Below are positions 46,075-64,000 of a stretch of 64,000 nt of DNA, one piece after another. Positions within the stretch are counted from its first letter, which is position 1. Every line of letters begins with the position of its first letter. A program made the translations under genes and the position numbers. Origin of the DNA: Natronomonas gomsonensis (GTDB taxonomy: Archaea; Halobacteriota; Halobacteria; Halobacteriales; Haloarculaceae). The stretch is taken from NCBI RefSeq assembly GCF_024300825.1, contig NZ_CP101323.1, positions 2,852,001 to 2,916,000 on the forward strand, read 5' to 3'. The notes below the pieces were generated by a model. The model was not told the origin of the DNA. It was given only the letters and a program-made list of their open reading frames with translations, and searched no databases.

Positions 46075-46294
46075 AACAGTAGAGCCGCACTTCAGAGTGT
46101 CCTACTCTTCCGTCTCCCAGACGAAATTTAACTAGAGTCAGTCGGCCTGCGGAGTGATCGGTAGTTGAGTTCTATCCCGCCTGTGACTGTTCCAGTCATG
46201 CCGAATCACCGCACGTGAATGGCATCAGAACCCAGATGCCTCAAATCCTCGAAACCGCGGGGTTATCCCCCTGAACACTGTATATAGAGGCACG

Positions 46295-56643: not shown

Positions 56644-59600
56644 ATGTCATCACCCTCTGATTCTGAACACACGCCACGGCAGTCTGCTGACGATCCACCA
56701 GAGGTGACTGAAAACGACCTCTTCGAGTACCCACGAACGATTTCCCCCGCCGAAATCGGTGAGTACATCAGTTTCGACCAGTGTCCTCGCTATTTCAAAC
56801 ACCGCGTGGAAGAGCAAGATTCGTCCTAGTACCACGATGGAAGTGACTTCACCGAAGCCTTCCGGGCATTGAATCTCCTCCTCTCAAAGGCAGGACAGGA
56901 CTTCGAAGAAGAAGTCGTCGAGAAAGTCGCAACCGATGCCTGTGATCTACTGGATTTAGAGCGGGACGTCGACGACTTCACGCCAGATCACGGCACGCTC
57001 GTCGAGACAATCGCTACAGCGTGCAGCCAGCAGCCAGCCCCAGATACACCAGCCATCATTACTCAGGCGAGTGTCGCCGGGACGATTGGCGTGTGGAACG
57101 TCGGTGGTGACATCGACCTCGTATTCGTGTGGGCAACCGATACCGGTGCGAAAGTTCGAATTGTCGACATCAAGCGAACCGACGAGGAAAAAAGCTACCA
57201 CCAGATACAGGCGGCGACGTATGTGGCCCTGCTGGAAGACGTACTCGCTACTGCCCCCAGTGTCGATACCGAGATGGTGACTGTCGACGCCGGAATCATT
57301 ACTCAGGACGATACTGACTCAATCGCACCGATAGCCGATGCCGTACCGACGTTCGATGTCGGGCCACGAGTGATGGATATCAATCGGCTACTTTCCTCGG
57401 GCGGCGAGTTACAGGAACTCTCAGAGACTGACTTCAAGGACGTTTCCTACCAACTGAATACGAAATGTGCAAACTGCCCATATAACGAGTCCTGCCTGAC
57501 GGACGCCTATCAGGAAGGCCATCTACGACTACTCGGGCTTACAATCTCCCAGCAAGAGCTACTGGCGGAACACGGGATTGAATCTGTGAGTGACCTTGCT
57601 GACCTTTGCCAGCCACCAGATGATGATGACTGGTATCCGACTGAGTATCGACGCGGGCGAAACGGGACACCCGTCTATCAAGAATTGGAAACAACTCCGG
57701 GGATCGGCGAGTTACTTCCAACGTTAGTCTACCGAGCCCAAATTCTCGAAGACCAACTCCATTCAACTCAATACCCGAGCGAGGAGAATGGAGGTCAAAA
57801 GGCATCTGGTAGCGGGGTTAGTGACCGCCCGCGGCCGTGGGTTCCTGGGACGGGTCGGTGTTCACTACCTGATGATGAGCCCGATGATGATGGGCCATTT
57901 GAGACAGTGTGGCGCAATGGGTCGATGATTCGCGTGTATCTGAACGTCCAGCGGGATCATCTTCGCGACCGAATTCTACAGATTAGCGGGCGTGTGACGG
58001 CAACAGCGAGTGAGGTTGAACCACAGCGGATGGCAGTCGCGAGCGATGGGGCGCCAGATCTCGACAGTGGCGCAGACACGGCTGAGAAAGCACTGCTCCA
58101 GGAGTTCATCGGTGAGCTATACGAAGCCATCAGAAGAGTGGATACGGGAATCGACTATACTGGCGTTGCGCAGACAGACCCACTCCTGCATTACTACCTG
58201 TATGATTCAACGGAGATGAGGGCGCTACAAGACGCGTTCGGCCGACACGACGACGAGCTCATAGAGTCATTCCAGGATGTCCTAGAGGGAGAGGCCGGGA
58301 AAGATCGACCGATGGTGTCCGTCCTCAAGCCGATTGTCAGCCAGCACCTCCAATTACCAACTCCCGCCATCGGGTTGCTTACCGCCTACCGGTCGGTGTC
58401 CCCGCCGACGGATGCCTATCGCAAACCCCGCACGAACGACGAGTGGAGTTACACGCCTGAGGGGAGTTCCGAGACGTTCGAGCTACGTCGGGTCTTTTCG
58501 TATCGATTGTTTAGCCGAACCGTCACGGGTGACCCAGACCCTGACGGGGGCGGAATCGTTGACCCGACCAGGGGAGCTGGTGGGAGTGGTGTTCCCACGC
58601 GGATGCGATACGACTCGAGCATCCCGCTTGGATATCTCTGGAGTGCAGTCGGGCGGATTGATGCAGAATGGGTGCAATCAGTGCGGGAGAAATATGAACT
58701 GGGCGACTACCCGCTTCAATCGTTCCGGTATCGGGATACAGCGGGGGAAACAGCTCCACTTCGCCCAACGGATATCGAGACGCTTGGGCGGCATTTCTGT
58801 GACGCACTCGAACACATCGAACGGAGTCTCACAGTCAAGGATGCAACGCTCGATAAACAGCCATACCCAATCGAAACGCTTGCCGAGGACTCGTTTGAGT
58901 CGCCAACGCTGGCCGAAGCCGGACGTGAATATCTCCGGATTGAGCATAGTGTCGCTCGAAACGAAGAGTATTCTCACTACCGAATGCAGCAACCCCAGCG
59001 GTTGCTTAGTGGGAATACGCTTCCCGTCCAAATCATCGATATCGAAGAAGTATCCGATATATCAGCCCGGGTTACCGGTCGGGTACGGTACGATAACCAG
59101 TTCCACAACCCGACGAACGCCGAGCGCGTGAAGCGTGCGTGTCGGGTGAAAGGAAGTGATGGATCAAGCAGCGGGTCGTGGATGGTAGCAAACGAATGGC
59201 AGCCGGGGCGGACTGACGAGGTCGTCTCAACACCCTACGGGATTGAGTCAGGCGTCCAAGCAACCATCGAAACGTTAGACCTTGACAACAACGAGGTTGT
59301 GTTCAGTCTGAACAATTTCTGGGGGTCGAGTGCCGAATTCGGTCGACGGCACGACAAATGGGCGACAGACCCAGCCAAAGGTGGACCAGAGTCTCCGTAT
59401 GTGGTGTTCAAAACAGGCGACTCGGTATTGCTTGACCCACAGACTGACGATATCAATGCAGGGCGGGTCGATACCGCACTTGAGTACATCGACGACAACG
59501 CTCTACATACTTGTTTGGAGCGAATTCGGTGGGGGAAAACCCCTGCACCGGAGACTAGCCTCTTCGAAGAGCGGTATCTCAACGCCTTTGGCGAATTTCT

Positions 59601-60648
59601 AGCCGACAACATCAACCCGGATGTCGAAGATAGCGAAGAGGCCGAATCCTCCTTCCCTAGCAATGAACAACAAGCCTTCATCAGAGAACACGAGTCACAA
59701 ATTGTTGGCCTGCAAGGGCCGCCTGGAACTGGGAAAACAGACGGGGCGTTCGCGCCAGCAGTTCTGGCGCGAGCTTGGGATCGAAGCCGACGAGAGTTGC
59801 CGTTTGCCGGACTTGTTACTGCACCGTCCAATACAGCGATTGATGAACTCCTCGAGAGCGTTTCCGACCTGTATGCGGCGTGCAATTCAAAAGATCCGTC
59901 GAGTGCGCTGGGGTCTGTAGAGTTAGTACGGATTACCGGTGACAAACCGGCTGACGCGCCGGAGTGGGTATCGTATATTGATTACAATGATTCTGATGAT
60001 GACGCTGAACTAGAACGCCTTGGACAGCGACTCCGAGAGACAACACCAGGAGAGCAAGGAACACGAGCCGACTTCGACGATGGTAATGACTCGGCAACAC
60101 AGACGGTCGTATTCGCAACGCCAAGTCGGGCGTGGAAGCTACTTGACTATATCATCCAAGGTGACGAGGAAGCGGAGACTGCGGCTGCATCCATCTGGCA
60201 TCTACTGACTGTCGATGAGGCCTCAATGATGACGACGCCACAGTTCTTGCTGTCCGGCGTTGGGCTTCAGGAAGCTGGTCAGGTGTTGGTCGGCGGCGAC
60301 CACCGGCAACTGTCTCCAGTGCAGAAGCACGACTGGAGTGAGGAGCGGCGACGCAGTATTCGAGCAACCGTTCCGTACCTCTCTGCGTTGGACTATCTTC
60401 GTGTCCTTCGCGGTGAGGAAGAAGACGTCCTCGAGGAAGATGCAGCTGACGAGTGGGAACACAGCCGAGATGCTGAGGCGGAAGATAACAAGATTGCAGG
60501 GCGACCAAACGATCTCCCGGACGATGTGCCCGCTAAAGCGACGATCACGATCAAGGAAATCAACGACAACCGCTACTCCTACTGGCAGTGGAGAGAAGGC
60601 GAAAAAGTGATTTCCAAATACAAAGACCCAGTCAATCTAGATGAGTGA
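56644..60648 (+). pseudogene. Dna2/Cas4-like nuclease-helicase interrupted by a stop and with a replaced C-terminus
   Basis: A single frame runs 56644-60648 but contains TAG at 56827-56829. The first 61 codons contain EYISFDQCPRYFKHRVEEQ, the start of a Cas4/RecB-type nuclease domain. After the stop the same frame continues (YHDGSDFTEAFRALN) through the nuclease core VRIVDIKRTDEEKSYHQIQAA and a CANCPYNESC iron-sulphur-like motif, then a long unknown middle, then helicase motifs GLQGPPGTGKT (I), VDEASM (II) and GGDHRQLSPV (III). Helicase motifs IV-VI are missing; instead the last 35 residues, with IKEINDNRYSYWQWREGEK, look like a different small haloarchaeal domain. The frame from ATG 56869 alone could still make a 1259-residue protein lacking the N-terminal Cys. 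Confidence 0.75.
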
Positions 60649-60664
60649 ACTCGAACAGATAGAC

Positions 60665-60685
60665 ACCCCATGTTTCCGTTGTTTC
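60665..60685 (+). repeat. isolated origin-recognition-box-like element
   Basis: ACCCCATGTTTCCGTTGTTT closely resembles the four elements at 63116-63220 (ACCCC, short spacer, GTTTCCG, then TCGT or similar). It is about 2.4 kb from them. Confidence 0.45.
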
Positions 60686-60736
60686 TCCACGCAGTCCTCA
60701 TCACAGACGGAACGAACCACTAAAAAACCGTAGGGC

Positions 60737-60798
60737 AAACCCCTGTTTTCGAGCTGAGGCGGTCGCGATATCGCGAACGGAAGGAGAAAACAGGGTTT
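60737..60798. repeat. nested inverted repeat around a 14-bp palindrome
   Basis: Outer arms AAACCCCTGTTTTC (60737-60750) and GAAAACAGGGTTT (60786-60798) pair with one C less in the right arm. The perfect palindrome TCGCGATATCGCGA sits at 60763-60776. The structure may be a terminator, a transposon end or a protein site. Confidence 0.5.
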
Positions 60799-61018
60799 CA
60801 GAACCAATGGATTAGCAAAAACGAAGAGCAATGAATTGGCACCAGTTAGAGTGCTTATAGGTCGGTATCGACGATGCTCGCAAACGCGACATTCTTAACC
60901 TAGCAGGATGGCGAGTTCATAGAGATTCCTTGACAGAAACTGTCGGAGCTAGTCGAGACCATCGAACAGGGTGTATCCAATGTGATCAGTAATCAGATCT
61001 CTAGTAAACCTTTTAACT

Positions 61019-61038
61019 GTTACCTGATTAGTGGTAAC
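61019..61038. promoter_or_regulatory. operator-like inverted repeat before the HTH gene
   Basis: GTTACC and GGTAAC arms separated by TGATTAGT, seven bases before ATG 61045 and immediately after a CCTTTTAACT TATA-like box (61009-61018). It is well placed for autoregulation by the HTH protein. Confidence 0.5.
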
Positions 61039-61044
61039 TACCAG

Positions 61045-61737
61045 ATGTACGAGGTTCTCGACGACACGGCGGCACAGACTCTCCTCGCCATCGAGAGTGG
61101 TAACTCCATCCGCCGTGTCGCCCAACACCTCCACACGCCCTACGAGACAGTGAGACAAGCCGTCAATCGGCTCGAAGACGCAGGCTATGTCACCTATGAC
61201 GACGGGCTCACTGTTGTCGACGAGCGCATACGCGACGCAGCGCTCGAGCTCGTCGCTGCCAGCGCCGGCGTCAGTCCACCCTCCATCGAGGAAACGTACG
61301 TCATCACACAGTTCAGTGATTGGCCGTTCGCGTTCACGCGGATCGACGCCGTCTACGTGTGGACTCAGGGCGGCTACCAGGTCGGTCGCGAGCCCGACGA
61401 CTATCCACTGTTCCTGGCTGTTCGTGAGCAGGACGTCGACGCTTGGGAGACATTTTTCGAGTGGTTCGACCTCCCGACCGTATTCGAACGACAGCCCCGA
61501 GACGAGTTGGACGGACCGCTGCAGATCGTCCTCGAGCCACACGCGTCACTCGATATCGAGCACGTCGAAGGGTACCCGGTAATCCCGAGAGCCGAGACGA
61601 TCGAGTACATGCGCGAGAACTACGCCCAATTCCAGTCGGCGCTGGCGATGCTCGACCGGATGTACGAAGACCTCGACCTCGGCGTCACGTATCGAGAGAC
61701 GGAACGGCACAGCCATGAGCTTCAACAATCGAAGTGA
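61045..61737 (+). CDS. winged-helix protein, AbiEi-like partner of a nucleotidyltransferase
   Basis: 230 residues from ATG 61045; the upstream 21 codons are not family-like and cover the promoter. The N-terminal winged helix is AIESGNSIRRVAQHLHTPYETVRQAVNRLEDAGYV. The rest (FTRIDAVYVWTQGGYQVGREPDDYPLFLAV; EHVEGYPVIPRAETIEYMREN) is an alpha/beta domain as in haloarchaeal regulators coded next to MNT-type nucleotidyltransferases. It overlaps the broken nucleotidyltransferase gene by 23 bp. I infer it was the antitoxin/regulator of a type IV-like or MNT-type system whose toxin has been lost. Expression is probably autoregulated through the inverted repeat just upstream. Confidence 0.7.
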   Translation: MYEVLDDTAAQTLLAIESGNSIRRVAQHLHTPYETVRQAVNRLEDAGYVTYDDGLTVVDERIRDAALELVAASAGVSPPSIEETYVITQFSDWPFAFTRIDAVYVWTQGGYQVGREPDDYPLFLAVREQDVDAWETFFEWFDLPTVFERQPRDELDGPLQIVLEPHASLDIEHVEGYPVIPRAETIEYMRENYAQFQSALAMLDRMYEDLDLGVTYRETERHSHELQQSK

Positions 61738-63115: not shown

Positions 63116-63220
63116 ACCCCTGGTTTCCGTCGTTTCGATCCAACCCCACGTTTCCGACGTAATTTTCGACCCCCCTCGTTTCCGTCGTTTCCTCACGCCC
63201 ACCCCGGATTTCCGTCGTCC
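63116..63220 (+). repeat. putative replication origin: four ORB-like repeats
   Basis: Four same-orientation elements at 63116-63136, 63143-63160, 63169-63192 and 63201-63220. Each starts with ACCCC, followed by a few variable bases and (G)TTTCCG-(T/A)CGT: for example ACCCCTGGTTTCCGTCGTTTC and ACCCCACGTTTCCGACGT. Spacing is 26-32 bp. A C-run next to GTTTCC is the reverse complement of the archaeal origin recognition box with its G-string, bound by Orc1/Cdc6. The cluster lies 26 bp beyond the 3' end of the orc1/cdc6 gene. Confidence 0.7.
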
Positions 63221-63245: not shown

Positions 63246-64000
63246 CTACTCGCGAGTCCAATCCTGCATCCGGCTGTCCTCGAGGATCGTTTCGCGGACG
63301 ACCTGGGGATCTTCGATGAGTCGGTTCTGGAGGTGGATGCCGCCCGCACTCCCCTTGTTGATCTTCTCGATTTCGACAACCCCGAGGAAGGCTTGCTCTT
63401 TCAGGATGTCGCGGAACCGGCGGACTGAGAGGATATCCATATCGAGATGGTTGCAGATGCGTTCGTACTGGTCGTACACCCGACTCGTGAGGAACGCATC
63501 GTCGTTGCTGTTGACACTCAGCTCCGTGAGCGCCAGCAACGCTGCCTTCGCCTGCGTGGGTGCGCCGTTCACGAGTTCTCTGAACCGGTCCTTTTCGGCG
63601 TGCTGCTGTGCCTGGCGGACGTGTTCCTCCGTCACCTGCTCTGCTCCGGCCTCGTAGGCGACCTCCCCGGCGTGGCGAAGAATGTCGATCGCCTTCCGAG
63701 CGTCACCGTGCTCCTGCGCGGCGAAGGCCGCCGAGAGCGGAATCACGTCCTCGGAAAGGACGCCGTCCTGGAAGGCGTCCTCACGGTTGAACATAATCTC
63801 CCGTAACTGGTTGGCGTCGTATGGCTTGAAGAACAGCTCCTTGTGCTGGAAGCTGCTTTTCACGCGCTCGTTCACGTTGTCGACGTACTGGATCTTGTTG
63901 CTGATCGCGATGACACCGACGCTACAGTCGATTTTTCCCGCCTCCTCAGCGCGCGAGAGCTTCATCAGCACGCTGTCGTCGTTCATCAGATCGATCTCGT
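63246..64000 (-). CDS. orc1/cdc6: Orc1/Cdc6 replication initiator, 5' end beyond the window
   Basis: C-terminal 250 or so residues of an AAA+ origin-binding ATPase. The frame enters from the right edge in the Walker B region (EIDLMNDDS). VGVIAISNKIQYVDNVNERVKSSF holds sensor 1 and the arginine-containing lid start; ELFFKPYDANQLREIMFNRED and FAAQEHGDARKAIDILRHAGEVA (sensor 2, with GDARKAIDILR) are classic. The winged-helix DNA-binding domain follows (TSRVYDQYERICNHLDMDILSVRRFRDILKEQAFLGV). The stop is 26 bp from a cluster of ORB-like repeats, so this protein probably recognises them. Confidence 0.95.
   Translation of the reverse strand, partial: EIDLMNDDSVLMKLSRAEEAGKIDCSVGVIAISNKIQYVDNVNERVKSSFQHKELFFKPYDANQLREIMFNREDAFQDGVLSEDVIPLSAAFAAQEHGDARKAIDILRHAGEVAYEAGAEQVTEEHVRQAQQHAEKDRFRELVNGAPTQAKAALLALTELSVNSNDDAFLTSRVYDQYERICNHLDMDILSVRRFRDILKEQAFLGVVEIEKINKGSAGGIHLQNRLIEDPQVVRETILEDSRMQDWTRE

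Follow-up and report, generated by a model that had tools for sequence, protein, structure and literature searches.

A probable remnant of a Dna2-like nuclease-helicase gene fused to the end of an origin-facing gene in Natronomonas gomsonensis

What is left of a nuclease-helicase gene that is interrupted by a single stop codon and ends in sequence foreign to its family? The question is raised by a frame at 56644-60648 of a 64,000-nucleotide stretch of Natronomonas gomsonensis DNA (contig NZ_CP101323.1, C1:2852001-2916000), here called the window. The genome consists of two contigs, with 99.99% completeness and 4.2% contamination. Most probably the locus is what remains, in chimeric and inactivated form, of a haloarchaeal Dna2/Bad-like nuclease-helicase gene. 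As read from the sequence, its lesions are two: a TAG that takes off the first iron-sulphur cysteine, and an in-frame junction between the RecA domains that swaps RecA2 for the 3' end of a small gene.

The nuclease-helicase frame and its two lesions

Translation gives a single frame with one stop in 1,335 positions, the TAG (Table 1). The 1259-residue open reading frame (ORF) behind it joins a nuclease to motifs I-III of a superfamily 1 (SF1) helicase, and the Dna2-like character proposed for it in an earlier note on this DNA is borne out. The profile PDDEXK_1 (PF12705) was matched at 31.9 bits against a cut-off of 22 (E 1.7e-7), and AAA_11, AAA_30 and AAA_19 were all matched above their own Pfam cut-offs. 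The alignment shows SF1 motifs I-III in the RecA1 part, as GPPGTGKT, DEAS and GDHRQL. AAA_12, which represents RecA2 with motifs IV-VI, has no Pfam match in the window ORF, while it is found at E 4e-17 in the intact homologue L005.

Four iron-sulphur cysteines are invariant across a 20-row alignment made of the window and 19 homologues. All four are encoded in the window DNA. The first codon (56782) lies 5' of the TAG and a CxxCxxxxxC cluster (57466-57495) lies 3' of it, so that the set is split by the stop; in 19 of 19 aligned homologues it stands in one polypeptide. Thus the TAG does remove 61 codons that include the first cysteine, as had been supposed. The window reads DSS(stop)YHDG at this point, and the three closest homologues read through with ESSRYHDG (L024), KSSLHHDG (L025) and NRGVHFDA (L026). 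Reassignment of the stop codon is unsupported and unlikely, since L003, a conserved small gene of the window genome, ends in TAG.

Homologues were collected from 96 genomes of the family and from a plasmid collection. Of 22 loci compared, 21 have the nuclease/RecA1 part and one, L094, is without it; the frames are mostly about 1440-1600 residues long. The closest are L005/L024, L006/L025/L058 (Salinirubellus salinus plasmid) and L007/L026/L059 (Haloglomus halophilum plasmid), and L024-L026 are 49-53% identical to the window protein across 1241-1243 aligned residues. The alignment begins upstream of the TAG in 20 of the 21 loci, the exception being L086, which starts later. RecA2 is present in all 21: 18 have it in one ORF with the nuclease, and three have it in the next ORF. 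No full-length homologue at these loci starts at 56869 and ends as the window frame does. A natural gene end is rejected, because the tail ends no homologue and RecA2 follows in every locus.

Mapping against L005, a check that the earlier note had proposed, places the end of helicase similarity at 60462. Two homologues, L027 (5285-10040) and L028 (5475-10432), also stop just past motif III; the split there is natural, and RecA2 is encoded by the overlapping ORF that comes next. In L031 the break precedes RecA1, and additional split members occur in the order, for example G294, G290 and G334. An arrangement like that of L027 and L028 is rejected for the window: a RecA2 query gave one match in the window genome at E <= 1, and this is weak (31% identity, E 1.6e-4) and distant, at C1:941626.

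Table 1. Features of the fused gene and the adjoining origin region (window coordinates)
Feature	Position	Strand	Basis or remark
5' fragment of nuclease-helicase gene, 61 codons + TAG	56644..56829	+	translation; L024-L026 align gapless across TAG
In-frame TAG	56827..56829	+	translation; sense codon in L024-L026 at same column
Downstream ORF, TTG start, 1259 aa: nuclease, middle region, RecA1, foreign tail	56869..60648	+	ORF list
PD-(D/E)XK (RecB/Cas4-like) nuclease domain and last three iron-sulphur Cys (57466, 57475, 57493)	56935..57495	+	Pfam PF12705, residues 23-209; alignment
SF1 helicase RecA1, motifs I-III	59671..60339	+	Pfam AAA_11/AAA_30/AAA_19; alignment
Junction zone	60457..60474	+	L005 similarity ends 60462, tail similarity begins 60475
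3' end of origin-facing ~107-aa gene, fused in frame (linker + predicted three-stranded beta module)	60475..60648	+	protein/DNA matches; model
3' DNA colinear with region behind donor gene	60649..60756	+	76% identity with L002 over 285 nt, counting the coding part
Origin-box-like repeat, matching the pattern exactly	60665..60678	+	directly behind fused stop
Origin-box-like repeat, one mismatch; left arm of hairpin-forming inverted repeat	60738..60751	+	behind fused stop
Three more origin-box-like repeats beside orc1/cdc6	63116..63184	+	pattern search
orc1/cdc6 gene	63249..64000	-	tblastn match extends to 64286, past window end

The foreign tail and its origin-facing source

Following up the tail, as was also recommended earlier, led to its source. 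The last 63-65 residues of the window protein match three other ORFs of the window genome at 64-71% (C1:2917112-2917300, C2:78377-78571 and C1:3034173-3034364), and the source is a gene for a protein of about 107 residues. In the DNA, the stretch 60475-60756 is similar to the small gene L002 and extends past the stop codon at 60646-60648. The replacement of motifs IV-VI by an unrelated tail, as first described, therefore stands. The length of 35 residues then given does not; the tail has about 57-65 residues, because the protein matches start at residues 1195-1197 and the DNA similarity at 60475. It comprises the last ~57 codons, the stop and the 3' DNA of the small gene. It begins at about residue 51 of the small protein, where the long helix ends beside the linker, and the whole strand module is kept. 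The helical N-terminal half, which starts MSYEPPTPP, is missing in the window, and helicase sequence stands instead.

The sequence GAACAC at 60457-60462 occurs in the same frame in the small genes L002 and L003, and as GAGCAC in L004. The alignments would be compatible with a junction formed where two genes share a few nucleotides in this way. The best DNA matches to the tail among the loci compared, L135 (87% over 151 nt) and L152 (85% over 202 nt), both lie outside the window genome, whereas the copies within it reach 80% over 174 nt (L002) and 77-78% (L003, L004); a donor copy from the window genome is thus unsupported. The fusion was not found outside the window genome among the genomes searched. 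A plasmid hit, H11, that was suspected to be a fused homologue proved to be a normal copy of 107 aa next to orc.

The small gene is widespread, and it faces replication origin genes. Of 243 genomes sampled from the order, 147 have a match to the C-terminal 58 residues of its product (E <= 1e-6). The whole protein was matched in 219 plasmid records, with "hypothetical protein" in all annotated rows among the matches listed. In the best 80 of 224 confirmed loci (L117-L196) an orc1/cdc6 gene lies 3' of the small gene in 65 and 5' in none, the empty 5' side serving as an internal control under the same flank limit as the 3' side. The gap in this sample has a median of 597 nt (range 34-2987); 15 of the 80 loci are without orc, five of them with less than 1.3 kb of downstream sequence. 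Other sets were also inspected. In the first, orc was found within 2.5 kb of 19 of 20 intact copies, always on the 3' side (none at L045). In 18 hand-picked loci it accompanied 16 of 19 copies, all 3', and was absent from L103, L105 and L110, the last of which ends 16 nt past the gene. Among 20 weaker or odd loci, three gave no copy at threshold, and 11 of 18 copies had orc, nine on the 3' and two on the 5' side. Two long-frame loci had no orc within 2.5 kb. As there are nine Cdc6_lid matches in 3.65 Mb of the window genome, chance adjacency to orc should be rare.

Repeats resembling the published haloarchaeal origin recognition box (PMC3528665, section 7) show the same polarity. Over 76 loci from the best 80 of 224, 92 such repeats were found in the 500 nt behind the gene (at least one in 39 loci) and none in the 500 nt before it; the box patterns were written after such regions had been viewed, so that the 5'/3' contrast is a fair reading and the absolute number is not.

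The window itself holds origin elements of this kind. The pattern ACCCCNYGTTTYCG, with at most one mismatch, has six matches in the window against 0.46 expected, and none of 100 shuffles reached six. Two stand behind the fused stop, three lie beside orc1/cdc6, and the sixth, at 46250, is away from the locus. The orc gene is 2604 nt 3' of the fused gene, compared with the median of 597 nt for the best 80 of 224 copies. With boxes directly behind the fused stop and orc 2.6 kb off, the fusion carries a degenerate origin-side fragment. An intact small gene lies beyond the window at 65112-65432, its 3' end towards the orc gene, and a looser pattern finds two plus-strand and one minus-strand elements between the two, just past the window. 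The recombination-type fusion suggested by the earlier note is supported; its link to an origin, through the 3' end of a widespread origin-facing gene, was unforeseen.

The orc protein of the window shares 99% identity with orc4 from a plasmid of Halorubrum hochsteinianum and with the partial orc of pNRC200 (Halobacterium). This replicon type has therefore moved from genus to genus, and the high identity is a sign that it did so recently. L086, on a Halorubrum plasmid, has a distant homologue of the nuclease-helicase, the small gene and an orc gene within one 10-kb stretch, so the two kinds of element do occur together on a replicon.

The function of the small protein cannot be read from its fold, since no clear fold match was found. 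In the predicted model (mean pLDDT 78, pTM 0.40) helices at 14-22 and 25-54 are followed by a low-confidence segment (55-58) and three strands (73-103). Foldseek returned nothing at E <= 0.001 with this model, and the best VIA-align Z was 3.5, with PCNA and crystallin chains tied. No Pfam or NCBIfam profile matches the protein above its cut-off, a sequence search of the PDB gave nothing at E <= 10, and viral_contigs yielded no relative; its PHROGs matches are weak (best E 0.017). No description of it was found in open-licence literature, including the available portions of PMC3528665, PMC3936714, PMC7430649 and PMC12141716.

Several single copies have features of their own. Two longer ORFs, of 492 aa (L063:4398-5876) and 199 aa (L072:5394-5993), finish in this C-terminal module but have different N-terminal parts. 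At L078:5825-6445 a decayed piece of the module overlaps other frames beside a putatively HEPN-like and nucleotidyltransferase-like gene pair. The pNRC200 copy is VNG_RS11135 of Halobacterium salinarum NRC-1 (L200:3328-3651), near rdfA and sph2; 3' of it lies a partial orc match that covers 236 of 412 residues and shares 99% identity with the orc protein of the window. In the window, an inverted repeat at 60738-60800 is strong (RNA fold -31.4 kcal/mol, z -2.7) and is either terminator-like or a degenerate origin-box pair.

Origin of the probable remnant and competing explanations

The most likely history would comprise three events, in whatever order. Plasmid-type material would have entered the chromosome. 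The helicase gene would have been joined to a small-gene copy of like direction by deletion or illegitimate recombination, perhaps where the two shared a few nucleotides such as GAACAC, which created the fusion and removed RecA2. A nonsense mutation would have added the TAG. A motor that lacks RecA2 could not be expected to cycle, and a nuclease domain that lacks its first cysteine would probably be unstable; together these would leave the locus with no working enzyme. The second expectation is drawn from Bad of Geobacillus stearothermophilus, in which, according to PMC7430649, alanine mutants of the predicted iron-sulphur cysteines were labile and were lost during purification.

The comparison with Bad and eukaryotic DNA2 defines what is absent here. 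Bad (PMC7430649) and DNA2 both likewise combine an iron-staple RecB-type nuclease, its four cysteines spanning the domain, with an SF1 helicase in one polypeptide; the open frame of the window, unlike either, lacks the first cysteine and RecA2. Bad has 1245 residues, compared with the 1440-1600 or so of most intact haloarchaeal relatives, and the likeness is one of description, not of sequence comparison. The haloarchaeal protein beside orc1/cdc6, for example VNG_RS11135, supplies the other half of the chimera, its last ~57 residues and 3' DNA corresponding to the window tail. The NCBIfam hits of the nuclease and helicase parts all stay under their curated cut-offs: TIGR03491 (TM0106 family RecB-like putative nuclease) scores 25.5 bits in the window ORF against 97.45, and TIGR00376 (IGHMBP2 family helicase) scores 78.3 bits in intact L005 against 348.9.

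Several observations weigh against an inactivated remnant formed in this way. First, the sequence outside the lesions is well preserved. With the lesions excluded, 76 columns have a conservation of 90% or more among the other rows; the helicase part breaks one of them, as do the intact L024-L026 (the 19 others break 0-11), and it breaks none of the columns that are invariant in the 19 other rows. The remaining ~1,195 codons thus show no excess decay, which means that the damage is recent or that some function is left. Second, the tail, compared among 46 copies with at least 65% identity, breaks two of 36 conserved columns, and at least two are broken in eight of the 45 other copies too. Third, family members occur as split genes (L027, L028, L031), and a shortened frame alone is no proof of loss. 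Fourth, the small gene stands behind the helicase in none of the 21 homologue loci within the stretch fetched; L086 alone has it, upstream. Fifth, the exact GAACAC is missing in the helicases L005, L006 and L007, which have GAGCAC, GTACAC and ATACAC, respectively. The distance of the window helicase to the outgroups L029 and L080 is about the same as for L024-L026. The recent damage suggested earlier is supported as regards the scarcity of other damage, and that it is recent is inferred from this scarcity.

This preservation speaks for a shortened working protein that starts at TTG 56869, keeps nuclease and RecA1, has abandoned unwinding and carries a harmless or stabilising tail. It would have intact nuclease motifs and motifs I-III, in a family where split genes are tolerated. 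Such a protein is nevertheless unlikely: it lacks a cysteine that is invariant in 20 rows, 20 of 21 homologue loci align from 5' of the TAG, and cysteine mutants of Bad were labile (PMC7430649).

It is less likely still that the TAG reflects a mistake in sequencing or assembly, with only the fusion real. That there is one stop in so long a frame speaks for a mistake; against it, the assembly is nearly complete in two contigs, and the absent RecA2 is an independent second lesion.

A functional chimera, in which the beta module would steer the nuclease/ATPase to replication origins, finds some encouragement in the retention of the whole predicted module at the junction and in its use as the end of longer ORFs (L063, L072), and is very improbable given the upstream TAG, the absent RecA2, the confinement of the fusion to the window genome among those searched, the fold searches without a clear match, which leave DNA binding by the module hypothetical, and two altered conserved residues in a tail that otherwise keeps 34 of 36 conserved columns (one of the broken columns is invariant in the 45 other copies, and G101, 87% conserved, is also changed). 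The inactivated remnant is accordingly preferred to all three.

Relatives and neighbours of the gene

The family is patchily distributed: 30 of 293 genomes of the order match at E <= 1e-30. Searches of viral_contigs and genome_contigs with the window ORF gave no relative, and a sequence search of the PDB gave nothing at E <= 0.001. Many intact relatives are borne on plasmids amid defence- or repair-type genes. Piwi genes adjoin the nuclease-helicase in L081 and L087 and lie about 6 kb off in L059. Genes for an MrfA-like DEAD helicase (with the MrfA Zn-binding domain) and an RNase_H_2 protein stand beside it in L024, L058 and L059; they resemble the MrfA/MrfB-type helicase-exonuclease pair, which is a neighbour of the gene and not a relative, and which was not found beside the window gene. 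L080 and L082 have restriction endonuclease genes nearby, and L084 has tRNA-guanine transglycosylase genes; others are without neighbours of these four types. By analogy, a role of the intact relatives in defence or repair would fit this gene context and the activities of Bad.

Comparison of the window plus the next 10 kb with the neighbour ORFs of 12 homologue loci revealed no MrfA-, RNase H-, Piwi- or restriction-type neighbours there; the matches obtained were orc genes (against L028) and three short ones to small ORFs. The Cas_Cas4 profile PF01930 scored 12.9 bits with the window ORF, below its cut-off of 22.7, and PADLOC Cas4 models gave E values of 0.0019 to 0.045. No match to Cas1 or Cas2 was found among the five neighbour ORFs scanned, and no broader search for cas genes was made. 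A PADLOC match to MkoA of Mokosh (E 8.2e-9) is confined to residues 934-1157, the RecA1 part. Directly behind the fused gene, a helix-turn-helix ORF (60982-61737) has PADLOC matches to CARF3/Csa3/CasR, the best at E 2.8e-6, over residues 16-78, which form its DNA-binding part only.

A broader idea goes beyond the locus, and it too is very doubtful: the 3' end of the small gene may be a portable C-terminal module tied to the origin, onto which upstream genes have been recombined repeatedly, so that here a Dna2-like nuclease is, or once was, aimed at origins. If that were true, such a nuclease could, for example, attack competing plasmids. The fused gene is chiefly a record of recombination beside a replication origin in a haloarchaeal chromosome. 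More interesting than the fused gene is the small origin-facing protein, a by-product of following up the tail, and a role of this protein in the initiation or copy control of haloarchaeal replicons, if it has one, would be directly testable.

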